38,690 bases of DNA from Herpetosiphon giganteus (GTDB lineage: Bacteria; Chloroflexota; Chloroflexia; Chloroflexales; Herpetosiphonaceae): NCBI RefSeq assembly GCF_016907925.1, contig NZ_JAFBCZ010000044.1:1-38690 (forward strand). The letters run 5' to 3'. Under the pieces are notes generated by a model that searched no databases, had not been told where the DNA came from, and saw only the letters and a program-made list of their open reading frames with translations. Positions 3,611-30,568 of the stretch are shown here, piece by piece. The stretch's first letter is position 1, and every line of letters begins with the position of its first letter. A program made the translations under genes and the position numbers.

Positions 3611-3930
3611 CACACTTCAAAAGGCGCAGGGAATGTATGGCTATAGGCTTTTGGCTGATGGCTAGCGGGTCATTGAGGTTCTTGCTTGAATCGGCATTTA
3701 ACGCAGCGGCGCAGAGAAATATAGCTATCGGCTAGCGGAACGATTGTGAGTATTCCCAGAATTTAGACCCAATAGCCAAAAGCCTGTAGCCTATAGCCAA
3801 CTTAACCTTCGTGATCTTCGTGCCCTTCGCGGTTCCCGTTCTTCGTGCTCTTCGTGCTCTTCGTGGATCAATATAAGGGACGCTGAGAACCGAAATTCTC
3901 TAGCGCCCCTATGTTCTATGTTCTATGCTC
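3611..3930. repeat. Mosaic short-repeat region between convergent genes
   Basis: No gene is seen. 3639-3667 reads as four successive heptamers of the form GGCTNNN. 3690-3720 carries the TTTAACGCAGCGGCGCAGAGAAA module. 3769-3799 is a run of NNAGCCN heptamers. 3805-3870 is a TTCGTG-type 9-mer tract ending in GGATC. 3910-3930 has CTATGTT/CTATGCT heptamers that abut the stop codon of the ABC transporter gene. Confidence 0.75.
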
Positions 3931-5784: not shown

Positions 5785-5836
5785 GGAAAACCCTCTTGTT
5801 AAGGATGAAGGATGAGGGATGAAGGATGAACGTATG

Positions 5837-5914
5837 CATCCAACGACACATCCAAATTTTTATTCGACAAGGAAACGTCAAATTACTCGGCTTATTTCAT
5901 AATTCATAATTCAT
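5837..5914. repeat. Direct repeat, copy 1 (78 bp)
   Basis: These bases are identical to 6024-6101. Just beyond copy 1 is CTTCCAAAAG, which is also the last sense-coding stretch of the ABC gene next to copy 2. A piece of the gene's 3' end was therefore duplicated together with the repeat. Confidence 0.9.
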
Positions 5915-6023
5915 TCTTCCAAAAGCCGTACATTACTACATATGAGGGATGAAGGATGAAAATCCTAGCTCATTACCCATCTTTGCTAAGTATGAAGAAT
6001 GAGGGATGAAGGATGAAAATATT

Positions 6024-6101
6024 CATCCAACGACACATCCAAATTTTTATTCGACAAGGAAACGTCAAATTACTCGGCTTATTTCATAATTCATAATTCA
6101 T
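6024..6101. repeat. Direct repeat, copy 2 (78 bp), abutting an ABC gene stop codon
   Basis: This copy is identical to 5837-5914. On the minus strand the ABC gene ends GAAGTATGAGGGATGAA, so its TGA stop is the first TGA of a heptamer-like run leading into this repeat. Confidence 0.9.
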
Positions 6102-6104
6102 CCC

Positions 6105-7862
6105 TCATACTTCCAAAAGGCTTTCCTCTTGATCTTTGAGTTGCAGGTCGTAGATGGTGCGATACAGGCCAGGTTGGGCCAATAATTGTTCGTGCGTGCC
6201 ATGTTGCACCACTTTGCCAGCATCAAGCACCAAAATTTGGTCGGCATTTTTGAGCGTCAACAAGCGTTGGGCAATCACAAAGGTCGTGCGCCCTTGCATC
6301 AATTGGTCGAGTGCTTGCTGAATCAAGTGCTCGGTTTCGGTATCCACGCTTGATGTCGAGTCATCCAAAATCAAAATCCGTGGGTTGAGCAACAAGGCGC
6401 GGGCAATTGCGATGCGCTGGCGCTGACCACCAGAAAGCGTCACGCCACGCTCGCCAACTTTGGTTTGGTAGCCTTCGCTGAAATTGAGAATAAAATCGTG
6501 GGCGCGGGCTGCTTTGGCCGCTACAATCACCTCTTCGTCGCTAGCATCGGGCCGCCCGTAGCGAATGTTATCGGCGATGCTTGAGCTGAATAAGAATGAA
6601 TCTTGCAGCACAATCCCAATTTGTTCGCGCAAACTTTTAATCGCCAAATCGCGCACATCGTGGCCATCGACCAACACTCGACCTTCAATTGGGTCGTAGA
6701 AGCGTGGAATCAGGTTGGTGATCGTGCTCTTGCCAGAGCCAGTTGGCCCCATCAAGGCGATCACTTGGCCAGGTTTGGCCTCGAACGAAACATCGTGCAA
6801 GGTTGGACGGCCACCTTCGCGATAGGCAAACGACACCTGCTCAAACTTGACGTGGCCCTGCACATGCTCCAAGCTCTGAGCAGCGGGTTTATCGGCCAAT
6901 TCATCGTAGGTATCGATAATTTCAAACACGCGGGCCGAGCTAGCAACCGCCGTCGCCGCCAAGTTGACCGTAAAGCCCAAGCGTTGCACGGGGTTGTTCA
7001 ACAACAGCACATAGCTGATCATGGCGAATAACGAGCCAACCGTAATCTTGCCATCAATCGCTTGCGGGCCGCCAATCCAGAGCAAAATAATCACGCTGAT
7101 GGCGACCAAAAAGTTGAAAAAGGGCCAGCTATTACCCCAAATCCGAATCACGGCAAAACGGCGGTTATACCACTCGCCATTATCACGATCAAATTTTTCT
7201 AGTTCATATGGCTCACGGGCAAAGGCTTTGACCACACGAATGCCAGTCAGGCTTTCTTGCATCATCGTCGAGAGCTTGCCCATTTGCTCTTGAATTTTGG
7301 TAAACAGCGGCTCGACCGTGTTGCCAAAGCGAATTGTGGCATACAACAGCACTGGCAAGGGCAAAAGTGCCAAGCCAGTCAAAGTTAAATCTTCCACCAC
7401 CATGGCCACGATAATGCCGAAAAGCAAAAGCATAGTCGAGCTAAGTTCAAGTAACCCAACCCCGACAAAGCGCTCAGTTTCGGTAATATCGCTGGTCGCG
7501 CGACTCATCAAATCGCCAGTTTGTGAGCGATCGTGGAACGAAAACGGCAGCCGTTGAATCGCATCGTAAAAACGATTGCGCAAATCGTAGGCCACGCGAA
7601 AGCTCAGCCACTCGCTATAATAGCGTTGAGCAAAGCCGAAAATAACCCGTACAACTGCCACGCCCAAAATAATCAGCGCAGTAATTAGCAAGGCCCGACT
7701 TGAGCCGCTGGCAATCCCTTCGTCAATTGCTTGTTTGAGCAATTGGGGAATTGCAATGTTTAAGCCGACCGCCAACAGAGTTGAGCCATAGGCATAGAAC
7801 ACTTGCCTAGGGTAGGGCTTTAAGTGGGCCAGTAACCGTCGATACTGATCTAGATGCTTCAC
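6105..7862 (-). CDS. ABC exporter half-transporter, degenerate-site subunit
   Basis: This 585-aa protein has the same architecture as the gene downstream of it. Walker A is GPTGSGKST (372-380) and the signature is canonical LSGGQ (476-480). Walker B reads LILDDSTSSVD, with Asp (D501) in place of the catalytic Glu, and the switch His is replaced by Gln (FVIAQRL, Q532). Asp for Glu is the hallmark of the non-catalytic subunit in heterodimeric exporters such as TM287/288 and BmrCD. The GTG start at 7862 is chosen because AAAGGAGG lies five bases upstream; extending to 7964 adds 34 residues unlike the family. Confidence 0.92.
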   Translation of the reverse strand: MKHLDQYRRLLAHLKPYPRQVFYAYGSTLLAVGLNIAIPQLLKQAIDEGIASGSSRALLITALIILGVAVVRVIFGFAQRYYSEWLSFRVAYDLRNRFYDAIQRLPFSFHDRSQTGDLMSRATSDITETERFVGVGLLELSSTMLLLFGIIVAMVVEDLTLTGLALLPLPVLLYATIRFGNTVEPLFTKIQEQMGKLSTMMQESLTGIRVVKAFAREPYELEKFDRDNGEWYNRRFAVIRIWGNSWPFFNFLVAISVIILLWIGGPQAIDGKITVGSLFAMISYVLLLNNPVQRLGFTVNLAATAVASSARVFEIIDTYDELADKPAAQSLEHVQGHVKFEQVSFAYREGGRPTLHDVSFEAKPGQVIALMGPTGSGKSTITNLIPRFYDPIEGRVLVDGHDVRDLAIKSLREQIGIVLQDSFLFSSSIADNIRYGRPDASDEEVIVAAKAARAHDFILNFSEGYQTKVGERGVTLSGGQRQRIAIARALLLNPRILILDDSTSSVDTETEHLIQQALDQLMQGRTTFVIAQRLLTLKNADQILVLDAGKVVQHGTHEQLLAQPGLYRTIYDLQLKDQEESLLEV

Positions 7863-7985: not shown

Positions 7986-8026
7986 CAGCAAGGACACATC
8001 GCAATTAAGCTGATGTGTCCTTGCTG
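7986..8026 (-). terminator. Perfect 15-bp hairpin, possible terminator of the DinB-like gene
   Basis: CAGCAAGGACACATC (7986-8000) pairs perfectly with 8012-8026 across an 11-nt loop. On the minus strand it is followed by GTTTAACC, only a short T run, so it would be a modest intrinsic terminator. It could equally be an operator or an RNA processing site. Confidence 0.45.
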
Positions 8027-8100
8027 CATTGTTAGGGTTATTGAGCTAAATTCGCCGCCGATTTAGCCTCAGCCCGCGTACAAAAGCAGGATTGTTCGTT

Positions 8101-8157
8101 TTTCGGCTCCCCCTCGCCCGCGTTCAGTGGGCGAGGGGGTTGGGGGGTGAGGGAACA
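8101..8157. repeat. Palindromic MITE-like element, half copy (copy 2)
   Basis: One G+C-rich arm of the dispersed palindrome is present: CCCCCTCGCCC (8109-8119) pairs with GGGCGAGGGGG (8129-8139) across a 9-nt loop, followed by the TTGGGG...TGAGGGA tail seen in the full copies. The other arm and linker are missing. It lies a few bases from the 3' end of the DinB-like gene and may act as part of its terminator. Confidence 0.75.
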
Positions 8158-8164
8158 GATAATC

Positions 8165-8734
8165 CTAGCTGCGGGCGGCTTTGGCTTGGCGCATCGTTTC
8201 GTGAAACTGCTCAACGTGATCGTTGGTATGTTTCAAGCCAAGGAAGTAGCGGCCATGGGCGTTGAGCGGCCCCCACCCCTCGTAGATCACTTGGCTAATT
8301 TCAAGATGCGGCTGGTCGGGCCAAGCATCGAGCATACTGAGGCACATGCGGCGGCTTTCTTCCAGTCGTTGGCGGGCTTGCTCAACGGTTTGCAAATCCT
8401 GCCATGGCATTTCATAGCGCAAGCGTTCGCTGGGCAAAATACCCGAAGCCATCGCCAAAGATGTCAAGGCTGCCTCTTCGTTGCCAGCGGTGATATGGCA
8501 AATCAAATGCCCAAACGTCCAAGCCATATCCCGTTCTTCCTCAGAAGCCCCAGGATCGTTCGCCTTGGGATCGGATGGAACGAAAACAATATCAGCGTCA
8601 ACTGCATCAGTTAATAAACTCAGCAGGTCGCCAATCATCTCATCGGTTGCATCCCACAGATCTTGCTTGCTTAGGCTGGCCCCAAGCTCGCCCAAGGTTT
8701 GGTTACCGTCCTTCAATAGCGTAAAATCGATCAT
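8165..8734 (-). CDS. DinB-like / YfiT-type metal-binding four-helix protein
   Basis: This 189-aa protein looks like a member of the DinB superfamily. Candidate metal ligands are the His in HLICHITAGNEEAA and an HxxxH near the C-terminus (LKHTNDHVEQF). DinB-like proteins are often thiol-dependent transferases or proteins of unknown role. The ATG at 8734 gives MIDFTLL with AGGAG-like bases just upstream. It is followed on the same strand by the ABC exporter pair, about 300 bp away, so co-transcription is doubtful. The family call is moderately sure and the reaction is unknown. Confidence 0.7.
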   Translation of the reverse strand: MIDFTLLKDGNQTLGELGASLSKQDLWDATDEMIGDLLSLLTDAVDADIVFVPSDPKANDPGASEEERDMAWTFGHLICHITAGNEEAALTSLAMASGILPSERLRYEMPWQDLQTVEQARQRLEESRRMCLSMLDAWPDQPHLEISQVIYEGWGPLNAHGRYFLGLKHTNDHVEQFHETMRQAKAARS

Positions 8735-11794: not shown

Positions 11795-12128
11795 AGCAAA
11801 CCACGCCCATTTAAGTTTTGATCCACGAAGGGCACGAAGAGCACGAAGAACGATTAGGCTATTGGCTATTGGAATGTGGCTATCGGGAATTCGTTGAAAT
11901 TACCCCAAGTCAATAGCCAATAGCCTAATCTATCGCTCCCAATCCCCAATTTCTCTGCTCTATTTTGACTTTTGACTTTTGACTTCTGACTTCTGATTTT
12001 TGACTTCTGATTTTTGACCTTCATCCCTCATCCTTTCCTCTGTTCTCTGCTCTTCATCCTTCATACTTCATCCTTCATCCCTTCTTTAATGTGGTAGCAT
12101 ACAGATAGTTTAGTGGGGGATTGCAACT
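11795..12128. repeat. Mosaic short-repeat region with an eight-unit heptamer array
   Basis: 11820-11855 carries the CACGAAG-type 9-mers in the opposite orientation to other copies. 11855-11930 has GGCTATT/ATAGCCA heptamers. 11963-12018 is eight contiguous heptamers, TTTTGAC with variants TTCTGAC and TTCTGAT. 12020-12085 has TTCATCC/CTCATCC units. No gene is seen. The promoter of the next gene should lie after 12088 but is not clear. Confidence 0.85.
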
Positions 12129-15586: not shown

Positions 15587-16107
15587 AAGGATGAAGGATG
15601 AAGGATGAGGGATGAAGGCAAAAATCAAAAGTCAGAAGTCAAAATTTAACGCAGAGGCGCAGAGAAACCAAAGGATGAAGGCAGAACATAGAGCATAGAA
15701 CATAGAGCATTCAACCGAGAGGCGCAGAGAAACCAAAGGATGAGGAATGAAAGCAAAAGTCAGAAGTAAAAAAAAGAGGGGAGCGAAAATTTAACGCAGC
15801 GGCGCAGAGGGACATGAGGGGGCAGGATTCAGGGATGAGGGGTCAGAAAATGTAATGGCAAAACAGAAAGCGGATTGGATCTAGGATTGGATCTAGTAGA
15901 ATAATCAAAATAATCTGTGCAATCTGTGGCGAAAAAAAAATACTCATTCGTGCAATTCGTGGCGAAAAAAGCTTCGTAGTTGCTCGTCCTTCGTGCTCTT
16001 CGTGTCCTTCGTGGATCAAAACCAGCCCCAATGCAGATCGTATGCTCTATGTTCTATGCTCTCGCTTGCAAGCGTAACAATTTTGCAACAAACGCAGCAT
16101 CGTAGCT
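15587..16107. repeat. Long mosaic short-repeat region after uvrC
   Basis: No gene is seen. From the uvrC stop onward: GGATGAA/GGATGAG heptamers (15590-15617), AAAAGTC/AGAAGTC heptamers (15625-15645), TTTAACGCAGAGGCGCAGAGAAA (15646-15668), AACATAG/AGCATAG heptamers (15684-15711), a second and third CGCAGAG module (15715-15815), AATCTGTGC/AATCTGTGG and ATTCGTGCAATTCGTGG pairs (15910-15965), a TTCGTG 9-mer tract ending GGATC (15984-16017) and CTATGTT heptamers (16040-16062). It contains almost every repeat type in the window. Confidence 0.85.
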
Positions 16108-16136
16108 TTGACAACAGCCAAGCCATGGTGTATCAT
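16108..16136 (+). promoter_or_regulatory. Promoter of tRNA-Pro
   Basis: Consensus TTGACA (16108-16113) and TATCAT (16131-16136) are spaced by 17 bp, giving a start just before the tRNA at 16148. Confidence 0.82.
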
Positions 16137-16147
16137 CTTAGCGTTGT

Positions 16148-16225
<78 letters not shown>

Positions 16226-20344: not shown

Positions 20345-20393
20345 GTGAGAGCATAGAGCATAGAACATAGAACATAGGGGTTAGGGATTAGGC
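20345..20393. repeat. AGCATAG/AACATAG heptamer tract
   Basis: Contiguous heptamers AGCATAG, AGCATAG, AACATAG, AACATAG begin a few bases after the methyltransferase stop codon. Confidence 0.85.
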
Positions 20394-20615
20394 TATCGGC
20401 TCTAGGTGTAATAGTTCATTGCGTTAACGACGGTTTGCCCCCTCACCCCAACCCCTCTCCCATGGAGCGGGCGAGGGGCTTTAACGCCGTGGTTCTTGCG
20501 CAATACGTCGGTAAAAACCGCTGCTCCCCTCGCCCGCGTGCAGTGGGAGCGGGGCTGGGGGTGAGGGAATGCCACTCGTTGTCAATCCAATGAATCATTA
20601 CACCTAGAGCCGATA
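20394..20615. repeat. Palindromic MITE-like element, copy 3 (full, 222 bp)
   Basis: Perfect 19-bp terminal inverted repeats (20394-20412 and 20597-20615, starting TATCGGCTCTAGG) enclose two G+C-rich hairpin arms (around 20436-20478 and 20524-20566) and a linker with TTTAACGCCGTGGTTCTTGC. The linker and arms are shared with the copies at 2205 and 30150, while the outermost bases differ between copies. No coding capacity is seen. Confidence 0.85.
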
Positions 20616-20645
20616 CCGTATAGCCTAACTTCGTGCTCTTCGTGG

Positions 20646-22463: not shown

Positions 22464-22784
22464 GATTATCCTCAGTCACAACCAGCCCATACTTTCTGGA
22501 GAGTAGGATAGCATAAAAGTCACATTAGAGAGAACATAGAACATAGAGCATAGAACATAGGTATCAGGCTATTGGCTATTGGCTATTGGAACCACGAAGC
22601 ACGCGAAGATCGCGAAGTTAAGTTTTTGATCCACGAAGGACACGAAGATGGCTTCATCCCTCATCCTTCATCCCTCATCCTTCATCCCTCATCCTTCATC
22701 CTTTCTTTTGCCTTTCGCTACGCATTCTCGTATACTAAACGGCGTTAACAACAATTGACCTACGCAAACTATAGGCGGGAGTAT
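22464..22784. repeat. Mosaic short-repeat region between murT and the SAM hydrolase gene
   Basis: 22533-22561 has AACATAG/AGCATAG heptamers. 22566-22588 has GGCTATT heptamers. 22594-22650 has CACGAAG-type 9-mers. 22653-22701 is seven heptamers in strict TTCATCC/CTCATCC alternation. No gene is seen. The promoter of the plus-strand gene begins right after the last array. Confidence 0.85.
22708..22736 (+). promoter_or_regulatory. Promoter of the SAM hydrolase gene
   Basis: TTGCCT (22708-22713) and TATACT (22731-22736) are 17 bp apart, starting just after the heptamer array. Confidence 0.65.
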
Positions 22785-23606
22785 ATGCAACCGAATGGAA
22801 TCTTAACCCTAACTACCGATTTTGGCAGTGTTGATGCGTATAGCGCTGTGCTTAAAGGAGTGATTCTCTCGGTTAATCCGCAGGCTACGTTGATCGATGT
22901 GACGCATGAAATTGATGCGCAGCGGATTGCCCAAGCAGCCTATTTATTGCATACAGGCTATCGTTACTTTCCCGATGGCACTGTCCATTTGGTAATTGTT
23001 GATCCAGGGGTGGGCGGCGATCGCAAGGCCGTGGCGTTGTGTTCGCCACGTTGGGCCTTTGTGGCTCCCGATAACGGGGTGCTTTCGTATGTGTGGAAAG
23101 ACCTTGTGGCAGAATTTGGCCGCGAGCAATTGCAGTTGATCGAACTGAGCGATAAGCGCTGGTGGTTGCCCAAAGTGAGCGCAACCTTCCATGGTCGCGA
23201 TATTTTCGCTCCAGTTGCGGCCCATCTTTCCAAAGGTTTGAAAGCTGAAGAACTTGGCAATCCATTAGCTGAATTAGTCGAGTTGCCGCTAGCCGAGCCA
23301 CGCCATCGCCTTGATGATGCATGGGAAGGGCGAATCATCCACGTTGATAATTTTGGCAATTGTATTACCAACATTACCCGCGATTTTATTGCCCAACACG
23401 GCAGCATCGAGCAAGTTGAAATCGGCATTCTCGATCAGCAAATTGGCCGGATTTGCCGCACCTACGCCGATAGCGAGTGGGGCATGGTAATGGCGCTTTT
23501 CGGCTCCAGCGAACGGCTTGAGTTGGCGGTGCGCAACGGCAATGCCGCCCGCATGCTCGGCGTTGGCATCGGCGATAGCCTGCGCATTCGCTTTATAGAA
23601 GGATGA
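22785..23606 (+). CDS. SAM hydroxide adenosyltransferase / SAM hydrolase (DUF62)
   Basis: This 273-aa protein matches the DUF62 family (PF01887), related to fluorinase and chlorinase, whose known members split S-adenosylmethionine with hydroxide to adenosine and methionine. Motifs: LTLTTDFGSVDAYSAVLKGVI, VHLVIVDPGVGGDR (family D-P-G-V-G-G), ATFHGRDIFAPVAAHLS and HVDNFGNCITNI. The start ATG 22785 follows GGCGGGAG by three bases. The stop TGA is the TGA of a GGATGAA heptamer, which continues into the repeat tract. The physiological role of this family is unclear. Confidence 0.9.
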   Translation: MQPNGILTLTTDFGSVDAYSAVLKGVILSVNPQATLIDVTHEIDAQRIAQAAYLLHTGYRYFPDGTVHLVIVDPGVGGDRKAVALCSPRWAFVAPDNGVLSYVWKDLVAEFGREQLQLIELSDKRWWLPKVSATFHGRDIFAPVAAHLSKGLKAEELGNPLAELVELPLAEPRHRLDDAWEGRIIHVDNFGNCITNITRDFIAQHGSIEQVEIGILDQQIGRICRTYADSEWGMVMALFGSSERLELAVRNGNAARMLGVGIGDSLRIRFIEG

Positions 23607-23793
23607 ATTATGAGGGATGAAGTATGAAAAAGGGTAATCAAGTATTCATCCTTCATAATTCATAATTCATCCTTTGCCAAAACTATGTTTGATACTCTCA
23701 ATAGCGAAAGATGAGGGATGAGGGATGAGGGATGAAACAAGGTAATCAAGTATTCATCCTTCATAATTCATCCTTCATCCTTCCGTAAAAACT
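23607..23793. repeat. Tandem duplication and heptamers before the helicase gene
   Basis: Two units about 109 bp apart share GGTAATCAAG plus TATTCATCC and TTCATAATTCAT (23633-23663 and 23741-23771), and then a 30-bp stretch (23679-23708 and 23788-23817). The second copy of that stretch is the start of the helicase gene. Between them is a GGATGAG/GGATGAA array (23709-23736). Confidence 0.88.
23685..23714 (+). other. Duplicated head of the helicase gene: 9-codon decoy frame
   Basis: The first eight codons of the helicase (MFDTLNSE) are repeated exactly here, then Arg and a TGA supplied by the GGATGAG heptamers. No Shine-Dalgarno site is seen in front of either copy. It is probably a by-product of the tandem duplication, but it could act as a translated leader. 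Confidence 0.7.
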
Positions 23794-25719
23794 ATGTTTG
23801 ATACTCTCAATAGCGAACAACGGGCGGCGGTTATGGCGCAGCTGGGGCCTGTTTTGGTCAAGGCTGGCGCAGGCAGCGGTAAAACCCGCGTCCTCACCTA
23901 CCGCATCGCCTATCTGATCGAACAGGGCGCAAGCTCCGATTCGATTGTTTCGGTAACGTTTACCAACAAAGCTGCCAGCGAACTGCGCACCCGTTTGCGC
24001 GATTTGCTGGGCAAACGCAGCCGTGGCCTCACCGCCGGAACTTTTCACGCCATTTGTGGCAAATTGCTGCGCCAGCATATTACTGGGCGCATTCGCAATT
24101 ACACCGCCAATTTTACAATCTACGCTGGCGACGAGCAGTTGCAACTCGTTCAACAAGCTATGGATAGCTACACTGGGCGCATGCCGCATGATCTTGAAGC
24201 ACCGCAGGTGCTGAATTTGATTTCGCGCTTCAAAAGCCGCATGCAACCGCCAACCCTTGCCCGCCAGATGGCCAACGATCCGCTAAGCCAGTATGCAGCG
24301 GCGATTTACCGCACCTATCAACGTCAGCTTGAGCGCTCGAATGCCGTCGATTTCGACGATATGATCGTGATGACCTACAAGCTGCTATTTGAGCATCACG
24401 ATGTGCTCGATGAAGTGCAATCGCGCTGGGCACATGTGCTTGTCGACGAATATCAAGATACCGATTCGGCGCAATATGCCTTGCTTGAGTTGCTTTCGCG
24501 GCCAGTTGGCAAGCGTCCGCGCTCATTATTTGCAGTCGGCGATGCCCAACAATCGATCTATGGCTTTCGCAACGCCGATTACACGATTATCAATCGTTTT
24601 ACTCGCGATTTTCCCGAAGCGCAGGTTGTTGAGTTGCTGACCAATTATCGTTCGCGCCAAGAAATTCTTGATGCAGCCTACGCTGTGATGCGCCATTCGG
24701 TGGCCGTGCCAGCGCTGACCTTGAAAGCGGCCCGCCGTTCGCCACCAGTGCCAGCCTTGGTAATCAACGAAGCAGCCGACGATCGCGCCGAAGCCGATGC
24801 CATCGCCAAATCAATTGGCAGTTTGCTCAGCACAGGCCGCCGCAGCAAAGATATTGCAATTCTCTATCGCTCGCGGCATATGAGCCGGGGGCTGGAAACC
24901 GCCTTGCGCCAAGCGCGGATTCCTTATTCGCTCAAAGGCCAAGCAGGCTTTTACGATCGGCGGGTGATTCGCGATGCCTTGGCTTTCTTGCGAATTATTG
25001 CTAATCCCAGCGATAGCCTGAGCATGAATCGAATTATCAATGTGCCAGCCCGAGGAATTAGCGCCAACACAATTGCCCATCTCACCAGCAAAGCCGCGGC
25101 CTTGGGTTTACCGATTGGCGAAGCAATTTTGAAGCGCGAAGCCTGGGAAGGACTCAGCGATCGGGCGAGTCAAGCAGTCAGCGATTGGGCACGCAAAATC
25201 TATCGTTGGCGCAAATTGGCCAGCGGAACCTACCCGCCAGAAGGCTTGCTGCAAACGGTATTGCAAGAAAGTGGCTACCAAGCCATGATCGAAAAGGATT
25301 GGAAAGATCCTGATCGCAGCGATGCCCTCGCCCACTTGGAGGAGTTGCGGGTGGCAGCGGGCGAACATACCAACCTTGCGGCGTTTTTGCAAGAAATTGC
25401 CTTGCTGACCAATGTTGAAGATAAAGATGAGCGCGATGCGGTGCAACTGCTGACGATTCATGGAGCCAAAGGTTTGGAATGGCCAATCGTCTATGTGGCG
25501 GGCTTAGAAGAAGGCACGTTGCCCCACGAACGCTCATTAGTTGAAGCAGGCGGCGTTGAAGAAGAACGGCGCTTGTGTTATGTCGCTTTGACGCGGGCTG
25601 GCGAACAACTCTACCTTTCGCATGCCAAAAAACGCCAGCGCAACACCCGCAATCCATCGCGCTTTCTCGACGATATTTTGGTCTATGGCCGTGAACGAGC
25701 CAAAGCCAAGGCTTTCTAA
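23794..25719 (+). CDS. UvrD/PcrA-like superfamily 1 DNA helicase
   Basis: This 641-aa 3'-5' helicase has motif I AGAGSGKT (24-31), Ia VTFTNKAASELRTR, motif II VDEYQDTD, motif III VGDAQQSIYGFRNAD, motif IV NYRS, motif V LLTIHGAKGLEW and motif VI EEERRLCYVALTRA. It is shorter than classical PcrA/UvrD (about 720-740 aa), lacking the long C-terminal extension that contacts RNA polymerase. The role is probably repair or recombination. The ATG has no clear ribosome-binding site, since the bases upstream are repeat DNA. The first 24 coding bases are duplicated 109 bp upstream. Confidence 0.93.
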   Translation: MFDTLNSEQRAAVMAQLGPVLVKAGAGSGKTRVLTYRIAYLIEQGASSDSIVSVTFTNKAASELRTRLRDLLGKRSRGLTAGTFHAICGKLLRQHITGRIRNYTANFTIYAGDEQLQLVQQAMDSYTGRMPHDLEAPQVLNLISRFKSRMQPPTLARQMANDPLSQYAAAIYRTYQRQLERSNAVDFDDMIVMTYKLLFEHHDVLDEVQSRWAHVLVDEYQDTDSAQYALLELLSRPVGKRPRSLFAVGDAQQSIYGFRNADYTIINRFTRDFPEAQVVELLTNYRSRQEILDAAYAVMRHSVAVPALTLKAARRSPPVPALVINEAADDRAEADAIAKSIGSLLSTGRRSKDIAILYRSRHMSRGLETALRQARIPYSLKGQAGFYDRRVIRDALAFLRIIANPSDSLSMNRIINVPARGISANTIAHLTSKAAALGLPIGEAILKREAWEGLSDRASQAVSDWARKIYRWRKLASGTYPPEGLLQTVLQESGYQAMIEKDWKDPDRSDALAHLEELRVAAGEHTNLAAFLQEIALLTNVEDKDERDAVQLLTIHGAKGLEWPIVYVAGLEEGTLPHERSLVEAGGVEEERRLCYVALTRAGEQLYLSHAKKRQRNTRNPSRFLDDILVYGRERAKAKAF

Positions 25720-29805: not shown

Positions 29806-30149
29806 GGGTTGGGGAGTAAGAACATAGAGCATAGAACATAGAACATAATCCTAAAAAATTTGTGCAATCTGTGGCGAAACATAGCCTTCGTGTCCTTCGT
29901 GCCCTTCGTGGATCAAACCTTTAACGCAGAGGCGCAGAGAAAGCATGGCTGCGGGCTATCGGAACAATAATCTGAATAATCTGTGCAATCTGTGGCGAAA
30001 CATAGCCTTCGTGCCCTTCGTGCCCTTCGCGGTTTCAATCCTGCGTGAATCGGCATTTAACGCAGAGGCGCAGAGGAGCATGGCTCTTGGCTTGAGGCTA
30101 GCGGAATATTTGTATGAATTCCATGATGCTACCTCCAATAGCCAATAGC
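29806..30149. repeat. Mosaic short-repeat region
   Basis: No gene is seen. 29820-29846 has AACATAG/AGCATAG heptamers. The pair AATCTGTGC/AATCTGTGG, a TTCGTG 9-mer tract, and the TTTAACGCAGAGGCGCAGAG module occur in that order at about 29858-29942 and again at 29972-30080. Heptamers with TAGCCA follow up to the palindromic element. Confidence 0.8.
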
Positions 30150-30342
30150 TGTACTGGTTCATGAGGTTGGCAACCAGAGTATGCCCTCACCCCCAGCCCC
30201 TCTCCCACTGAACGCGGGCGAGGGGAGCACTAGTTTTACCGACGAATTACGCAAGAACCACGGCGTTAAAGCCCCTCGCCCGTCGGACGGGCGAGGGGTT
30301 GGGGTGAGGGGTAAACCGTCGTTAATCCAATGAACCAGTACA
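30150..30342. repeat. Palindromic MITE-like element, copy 4 (full, 193 bp)
   Basis: 13-bp perfect terminal inverted repeats (TGTACTGGTTCAT at 30150-30162 and its complement at 30330-30342) enclose two G+C-rich hairpin arms and the shared linker with GGCGTTAAAG. The orientation is opposite to the copy at 20394. Confidence 0.85.
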
Positions 30343-30568
30343 AATAGCCAATAGCCAACAGCCTATCACCCTATCTTCGTGTGCTTCGTAGATCAATCCG
30401 ATAGCCCATAGCCAAAAGCCCATAGCCCGCGTAGAACAATCGCCGATTTGTCCTACATTCGTTCATCAAGTTGTCGCTGATTGTACCCGTAGCACATCTG
30501 CTATACTTAGGGACGCGAAATCGTCCCGCAAGCCAAACTGTTCCTCCCAAACATCGAGGAGTGTAGCA
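30343..30568. other. Repeat tail and leader region of the aminotransferase gene
   Basis: 30343-30432 continues in heptamers of the type ATAGCCA/AAAGCCC. From about 30435 the sequence is unique and holds TATACT (30502-30507), a likely -10 box. It is followed by a small hairpin GGGACG-CGAAAT-CGTCCC (30510-30527) that would sit at the very 5' end of the mRNA. No good -35 is seen. Confidence 0.5.

Follow-up and report, generated by a model that had tools for sequence, protein, structure and literature searches.

A tandem duplication of the uvrD head within a heptamer-repeat spacer of Herpetosiphon giganteus

The tandem unit ahead of uvrD

The window (the whole 38,690-nt stretch of Herpetosiphon giganteus DNA that was analysed) belongs to a draft genome of 6.16 Mb in 85 contigs. 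Two forward-strand genes flank the spacer studied here. The upstream gene (22755–23606; PF01887 and PF20257; start codon not established) encodes a SAM hydroxide adenosyltransferase; its last codons and TGA stop (GAA GGA TGA) come from the first heptamer of the spacer. The downstream gene (23794–25719) encodes a UvrD/Rep-type helicase of 641 aa and matches PF00580 with 268 bits and PF13361 with 208.3 bits (cut-offs 23 and 25.6). No Rfam family at gathering thresholds and no tRNA was found at the locus; across the whole window these searches gave a single match, the tRNA at 16148–16221.

Sequence comparison located an exact 30-nt direct repeat, AAAACTATGTTTGATACTCTCAATAGCGAA, at 23679–23708 and 23788–23817, the two copies being 109 bp apart. 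The tandem duplication of the helicase head proposed in a sequence-only reading of this DNA is thus real, with 30/30 nt identical. The 77 nt on the 5′ side are also duplicated (23598–23674 and 23706–23782), with 67/77 positions alike at an offset of 108 bp. The real duplicated unit is about 108–109 bp long and comprises a spacer element as well as the uvrD head. The sequence-only reading had given its extent as eight codons plus leader; the codons are correct, but the unit is larger and the identical leader before the duplicated ATG is merely 6 nt (AAAACT).

Each unit consists of a GGATGAA-type arm, a unique core, a TTCATCC-type arm and then the first eight uvrD codons; GGTAATCAAG is the spacer-element core that stands between the arms. 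All features lie on the forward strand. In unit 1 the left arm (23598–23628) runs outward from the upstream stop, the core GGTAATCAAGTATTCAT (23633–23649) reaches 5 nt into the right arm (23645–23674, detected as inverted repeat I2), and the copied head follows at 23679–23708. The left arm of unit 2 occupies 23706–23735; the junction there, GCGAA followed by AGATGAGGGATGAGG, is common to this genome and H. llansteffanensis. Its core occupies 23741–23757 and its right arm (23753–23783) lies directly 5′ of the helicase start, with the genuine gene head at 23788–23817. An exact-copy search placed the core at two sites in the 6.16-Mb genome, both in these units; a further 11 sites each carry 3 mismatches, about the yield of a reversed control pattern. 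The locus as a whole has 111 matches in the genome, self and overlapping places on both strands being counted. The region has a predicted RNA fold of −74.3 kcal/mol (z −7.3), indicating strong hairpin potential, and could form either two local hairpins with the copied head between them or one long hairpin around it.

The copied head opens a short frame ahead of the gene (23685–23714), as the sequence-only reading had described: it starts at ATG 23685, encodes MFDTLNSER and is closed after nine codons by the TGA at 23712–23714, which lies within the next heptamer array. This decoy frame is out of frame with uvrD (109 = 36 × 3 + 1) and has the same start context from −6 onward. None of the six species has a Shine-Dalgarno-like tetramer within the 24 nt that precede uvrD, which bears out the earlier remark that the helicase has no clear ribosome-binding site. 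This is unremarkable, since only 219 of 395 well-scored genes in our sample (with our own start predictions) have such a tetramer.

Copies across Herpetosiphon

Its relatives H. llansteffanensis CA052B, H. geysericola DSM 7119 and H. aurantiacus DSM 785 encode a near-identical helicase. The uvrD head is present in all six Herpetosiphon genomes: twice in this genome and in H. llansteffanensis, once in the other four. H. llansteffanensis, a separate assembly, has the same duplication with the same junction. The same slot holds another repeat family, GTCAAAA/TTTTGAC, in H. geysericola and H. aurantiacus, and GGATGAA arms flanking a 9-mer repeat in the two further Herpetosiphon genomes (G002 and G003).

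To trace how the copies evolved, both units of this genome were aligned with the two of H. llansteffanensis. Across the 36 left-arm columns, unit 2 of this genome and unit 2 of H. llansteffanensis differ at only 2 positions, as against 8 between the units of this genome and 7 between those of H. llansteffanensis. As the second-unit left arms are closest across species, they point to a common junction and origin of the duplication. The first-unit left arms show no clear grouping (7/36 differences between species), and that of H. llansteffanensis is nearest to the second unit of this genome, with 5. The shared origin is thus carried by the second units and the junction, the first units not grouping by position. 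The remaining 51 columns (core, right arm and leader) behave differently, with 7 differences within this genome, 4 within H. llansteffanensis and 13–18 between genomes. A CA before the start (AAAACACTATG) is found in both H. llansteffanensis copies and is absent from the other five species. We read this pattern as one old duplication with concerted evolution within each genome.

The head of the decoy is identical at 24/24 nt in all four copies. Four-fold sites of uvrD differ by 25% (80/323) between this genome and H. llansteffanensis, thus identical heads need either homogenisation or selection. Homogenisation, which is visible in the flanks, explains the identity; selection on the decoy is possible, with two genomes to judge from. 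Because the copies appear homogenised within each genome, conservation of the decoy is no evidence of function: conservation among orthologues beyond such copying was not found, the decoy being present in two of six species and homogenised in those.

The gene trees at this locus are not uniform. By shared sites the uvrD gene is nearest to that of H. geysericola (88, against 56 for H. llansteffanensis), and the upstream gene favours H. llansteffanensis (32 vs 19). For 20 genes of the window, 12 favour H. geysericola and 8 H. llansteffanensis. The placing of uvrD with the duplication-free H. geysericola needs mosaic ancestry or loss of the duplication by spacer replacement.

Repeat polarity and spacer turnover

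It had been suggested that repeats capture gene edges. We screened for exact 18-nt words 40–700 bp apart, of which one copy had to be coding over 40% or more of its length and its partner over less than 20%. The screen covered samples of this genome (1.24 Mb), H. aurantiacus (460 kb), H. geysericola (440 kb), H. llansteffanensis (56 kb) and G002 and G003 (60 kb each). This genome gave three places: the uvrD locus, C7:9458 (a 19-nt piece which is itself a GGATGAA-type repeat) and C7:59901. The last, at G000:C7:59901–59921, is a 21-nt exact direct repeat with its copies 588 bp apart and one of them partly coding. The ten rows from H. aurantiacus all fall in one cluster resembling tandem short peptide genes; near-identical blocks recur there as direct repeats about 226 bp apart (G001:C1, approximately 1047005–1047850; L201:7005–7850). 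H. llansteffanensis returned the uvrD locus again, and no place was found in the 440 kb of H. geysericola or in the 60 kb each of G002 and G003. With one clear heptamer-linked coding-head locus in 2.3 Mb of six Herpetosiphon genomes, gene-edge capture is no general habit of the repeats in this sample.

The spacer cited as a mirror case lies between two ABC transporter genes (Pfam ABC_membrane and ABC_tran). It holds 124-nt tandem copies (5796–5919 and 5983–6106) that are alike at 116/124 positions and have the same arm-core-arm layout. What is duplicated is the spacer core, and the coding sequence touched amounts to 2 nt of the stop codon. H. llansteffanensis has one copy here, and H. geysericola a different, shorter spacer.

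At least six repeat families occupy the spacers: A (GGATGAA), B (GTCAAAA), C (AGAACAT), D (GGCTATT), E (CACGAAGNN) and F (AACGCAGAGGCGCAGAG). Families E and F have longer units, and several families can share one spacer. In 1,238,690 bp of this genome, 346 arrays of the six families pooled lie in spacers and 13 elsewhere. Being tandem units of about 7 nt, mostly intergenic and dispersed, they are STRR-like. The sense of each family is fixed: at 5′ and 3′ ends of genes alike it reads away from the nearest gene edge. Within the window this is seen in the spacers at 5785–6104, 11795–12128, 15587–16147, 20345–20640, 22464–22754, 23604–23793 and 29806–30568. Dividing each spacer at its midpoint, 281/346 arrays obey the rule; within 60 bp of an edge 104/106 do (A 32/32, B 10/10, C 27/27, D 5/6, E 27/28, F 3/3), and the array nearest an edge is outward in 111/115 spacers. 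The corresponding counts are 54/68, 32/32 and 38/41 in H. aurantiacus and 112/141, 42/42 and 47/49 in H. geysericola. The rule holds by midpoint for tandem (187/231), convergent (50/58) and divergent (44/57) gene pairs of this genome, and for arrays with no opposite-sense partner of their own family in the spacer (227/286).

Our assignment of the outward sense was made for each family after inspection of the window spacers and so contains six fitted signs; with the window left out the counts are 259/312 by midpoint and 95/97 within 60 bp. Gene calls came from our own unpublished codon-score script and the family sets from strict patterns. A test of order, which is independent of the midpoint, gave the same picture: spacers with at least three arrays have them in forward-then-reverse order in 51/58 cases here (shuffle mean 16, maximum 27), 4/4 in H. 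aurantiacus (shuffle mean 1.1, maximum 4) and 25/26 in H. geysericola. Where two neighbouring arrays have opposite senses, they point toward each other in 81 cases and apart in 8 in this genome (15 and 0 in H. aurantiacus). An unsupervised search for 7-mers on the outward strand, the window again left out, recovered GGATGAA (71 vs 13 edges), ATAGAAC (47 vs 3) and CACGAAG (74 vs 20), the top 7-mers being biased at both 5′ and 3′ edges.

Some subsets taken alone are not significant by midpoint: convergent (8/14) and divergent (9/13) pairs and families A (6/8), C (6/10), D (4/7) and F (3/3) in H. aurantiacus, and family D (28/43) in this genome. The midpoint split breaks down where the distance to a stop reaches 120 bp or more (14/38 and 4/12 here, 0/7 in H. 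aurantiacus), which we read as the start-side block extending past the midpoint. Beyond the genus, GGATGAA arrays occur in 27/150 genomes of the class and AGAACAT arrays in 7/150, namely the six Herpetosiphon and one other with two matches. Polarity was counted in a single genome outside the genus (G068), where 3/10 arrays are outward and 1/7 within 60 bp; this is a poor test, as 8/10 of its arrays belong to family D, the weakest here, and family A has 1/2 outward. The polarity rule is demonstrated within the Herpetosiphon samples only (three genomes).

Several simple causes of the polarity were considered. A purine-strand rule is not general, as the outward-biased TCACCCC and CCTCACC are pyrimidine-rich. 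Supply of stop codons can be set aside by reasoning, since neither the GTCAAAA nor the CACGAAG unit contains a stop codon when read outward. A general function as hairpin terminators is weakened by left and right families that mostly differ. We also note a palindromic element of the CCCCTCACCCC...GGGGTGAGGGG type at 8000–8165 and 20345–20640, which some species have and others do not; its 7-mers are also outward-biased at gene edges.

The spacers themselves change from species to species. Between this genome and H. geysericola, 186 orthologous spacer pairs were obtained from 201 tried, and 39 have arrays in either species. The family set differs in 36/39, a figure that may overstate change given our own gene calls and strict family patterns. 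Length differs by more than 20 bp in 31/39 array-bearing pairs as against 17/147 array-free ones. Despite this turnover the polarity rule holds in both genomes. In the spacers at 23604–23793, 5785–6104, 3616–3930 and 22464–22754 the families vary by species and the flanking genes stay put; at 22464–22754 patches inside the spacer also change. In three short spacers (the uvrD locus, C1:72926–73032 and C1:90453–90636) both arms appear by eye to swap together, from GGATGAA-type here to GTCAAAA-type in H. geysericola; a stricter count on C1 only gave just C1:90453–90636.

Origin of the duplication and known repeat systems

We think it probable that a tandem duplication of about 108–109 bp, homogenised since, produced this locus, with slippage or template switching as the likely cause, the decoy as a passive passenger and the spacer as one among many restless ones. 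One event would have taken in both the heptamer spacer element and the 30 nt that surround the uvrD start. Its likely route is slippage of replication, or a switch of template, in a spacer rich in repeats and prone to form hairpins; a 3-bp GAA match at the junction is not significant. The pattern of shared differences suggests that core, right arm and leader were later homogenised between the copies in each genome. Local duplications confined to spacers are frequent, filling 42 bins of 300 bp in the 1.24 Mb of this genome.

A 30-nt exact match within 109 bp can hardly be put down to chance, judging from its length and distance, and chance is further disfavoured because the separately assembled H. 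llansteffanensis carries the same duplication. An 85-contig draft might invite suspicion of an assembly artefact, but the recurrence of the structure with species-specific differences in that separate assembly makes this negligible. Unit 2 could instead be a mobile hairpin element that entered the gene head with a 30-bp target duplication. It does sit exactly between two 30-bp direct copies, an arrangement equally expected from tandem duplication, and GGATGAA arrays are dispersed (204 forward and 177 reverse matches to a 20-nt pattern, overlaps counted). However, the exact core is common only to the neighbouring unit 1, as tandem copying predicts, and no MITE/REPIN-like element with fixed ends was found to be common to several loci, the exact core being confined to the uvrD locus. 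Two independent insertions of one element are ruled out, the exact core occurring nowhere else in the genome. Further, in spacers that hold arrays of both senses, same-family pairs number 27 here against 37.6 when shuffled (sd 4.5; 76 spacers; 1990/2000 shuffles at or above the observed value); H. aurantiacus shows no difference (4 against 4.5; 15 spacers). As such pairs are fewer than shuffled in this genome, its spacers are mostly not palindromic elements; nested palindromic insertions are likewise disfavoured here as their general origin. We regard insertion of unit 2 as improbable.

The decoy, too, admits another reading. As a putative leader frame on a read-through transcript it would take initiating ribosomes and lower or tune UvrD synthesis. 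It has the AAAACT-ATG initiation context of uvrD and is intact in both species that carry the duplication. Across six species the spacer keeps little, by eye, other than a run of A and the ACT that precedes the ATG, making read-through from the upstream gene plausible. The conservation is nevertheless confounded by homogenisation, four of six species manage without the decoy, and MFDTLNSER shows no obvious regulatory codons. Leader peptides and upstream ORFs in attenuation are short frames that precede a gene. The decoy resembles them in this respect; it differs in being a copy of the gene's own head, with no obvious regulatory codons and in two of six species. We found no support for the ribosome titration or leader peptide suggested in the sequence-only reading, copy identity being accounted for by homogenisation. 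A leader role is therefore unlikely, and we infer that the decoy frame is a passive passenger.

A broader proposal, which we hold to be very doubtful, is that the spacers record chromosome breaks healed time and again, short repeats being added to the 3′ ends in a telomere-like manner. Two facing 3′ ends would be extended and then joined, giving the same outward sense at every gene edge, the families on either side being unrelated; the duplicated helicase head would be a misjoined end. A candidate writer would be a reverse transcriptase gene, L262:328–2703 (G000:C5:164292–166664), which matches PADLOC RT_UG37 with 1205 bits. A UG37-like gene occurs once in each of the six Herpetosiphon and in two other genomes, G007 (RT_UG37 match of 781 bits) and G016 (a carrier by protein similarity alone), making 8/150 genomes of the class. 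The proteins of the other five Herpetosiphon are 83–95% identical to that of this genome, and the gene looks to be kept vertically rather than mobile. Among the matches listed, a literature search on UG37 held unrelated papers only. Against end extension, G007 and G016 have the UG37-like gene but neither GGATGAA nor AGAACAT arrays, GGATGAA arrays occur in several genomes that lack the gene, and within one spacer (22464–22754) patches change too.

Returning to tandem duplication, the event probably arose passively, as a side effect of spacers that are unusually restless. Nor is the decoy likely to be anything out of the ordinary, in contrast to its setting. Within one genus the spacers change between species, yet repeat polarity is strict at both ends of genes and, in the main genome, holds for all three gene-pair arrangements. 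Either directional copying builds the spacers or selection removes the wrong sense, and either cause would inform how bacterial intergenic DNA is made. The duplicated head marks, in a small way, a single step of this turnover.

REPIN/BIME and MITE elements are small, dispersed, inverted-repeat intergenic DNA. The uvrD spacer element is likewise small, intergenic and built as an inverted repeat; unlike them it has a locus-specific core and no defined ends, and the arms of other spacers are usually of different families. Cyanobacterial STRR/LTRR repeats and the G-rich heptamers of Xanthomonas and Nostoc are described, in the sections of the papers available, as intergenic, with mostly 7-nt units at many dispersed loci, STRR-type repeats varying in length and sequence between close relatives (PMC4692102, PMC2408588). 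The Herpetosiphon repeats are similarly intergenic, dispersed and changing between relatives, a likeness in layout. They differ in having six coexisting families with a fixed sense at 5′ and 3′ edges, a rule that the available sections do not describe for STRR. Two-ended polarity for several families was not found in the portions of the literature consulted, which were mostly open access and little aimed at orientation, and Herpetosiphon repeats of this kind are not named there; the passages on repeats, intergenic DNA and tandem sequence in the H. aurantiacus and H. llansteffanense genome papers make no mention of them. The nearest precedent for a sense rule in these sources is the TAACTGA heptamer of marine Beggiatoaceae, of which 132/170 sets are oriented toward a start codon without a ribosome-binding site (PMC4679880, Table 1). 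In both systems, heptamers between genes favour one orientation at start codons. As far as that account goes, TAACTGA is one family with a start-codon rule, whereas Herpetosiphon has several families, at stops as well as starts and between convergent as well as divergent pairs. Set against these partial accounts, the uvrD event is a small tandem duplication in a repeat spacer, within the broad kind of intergenic heptamer repeats.
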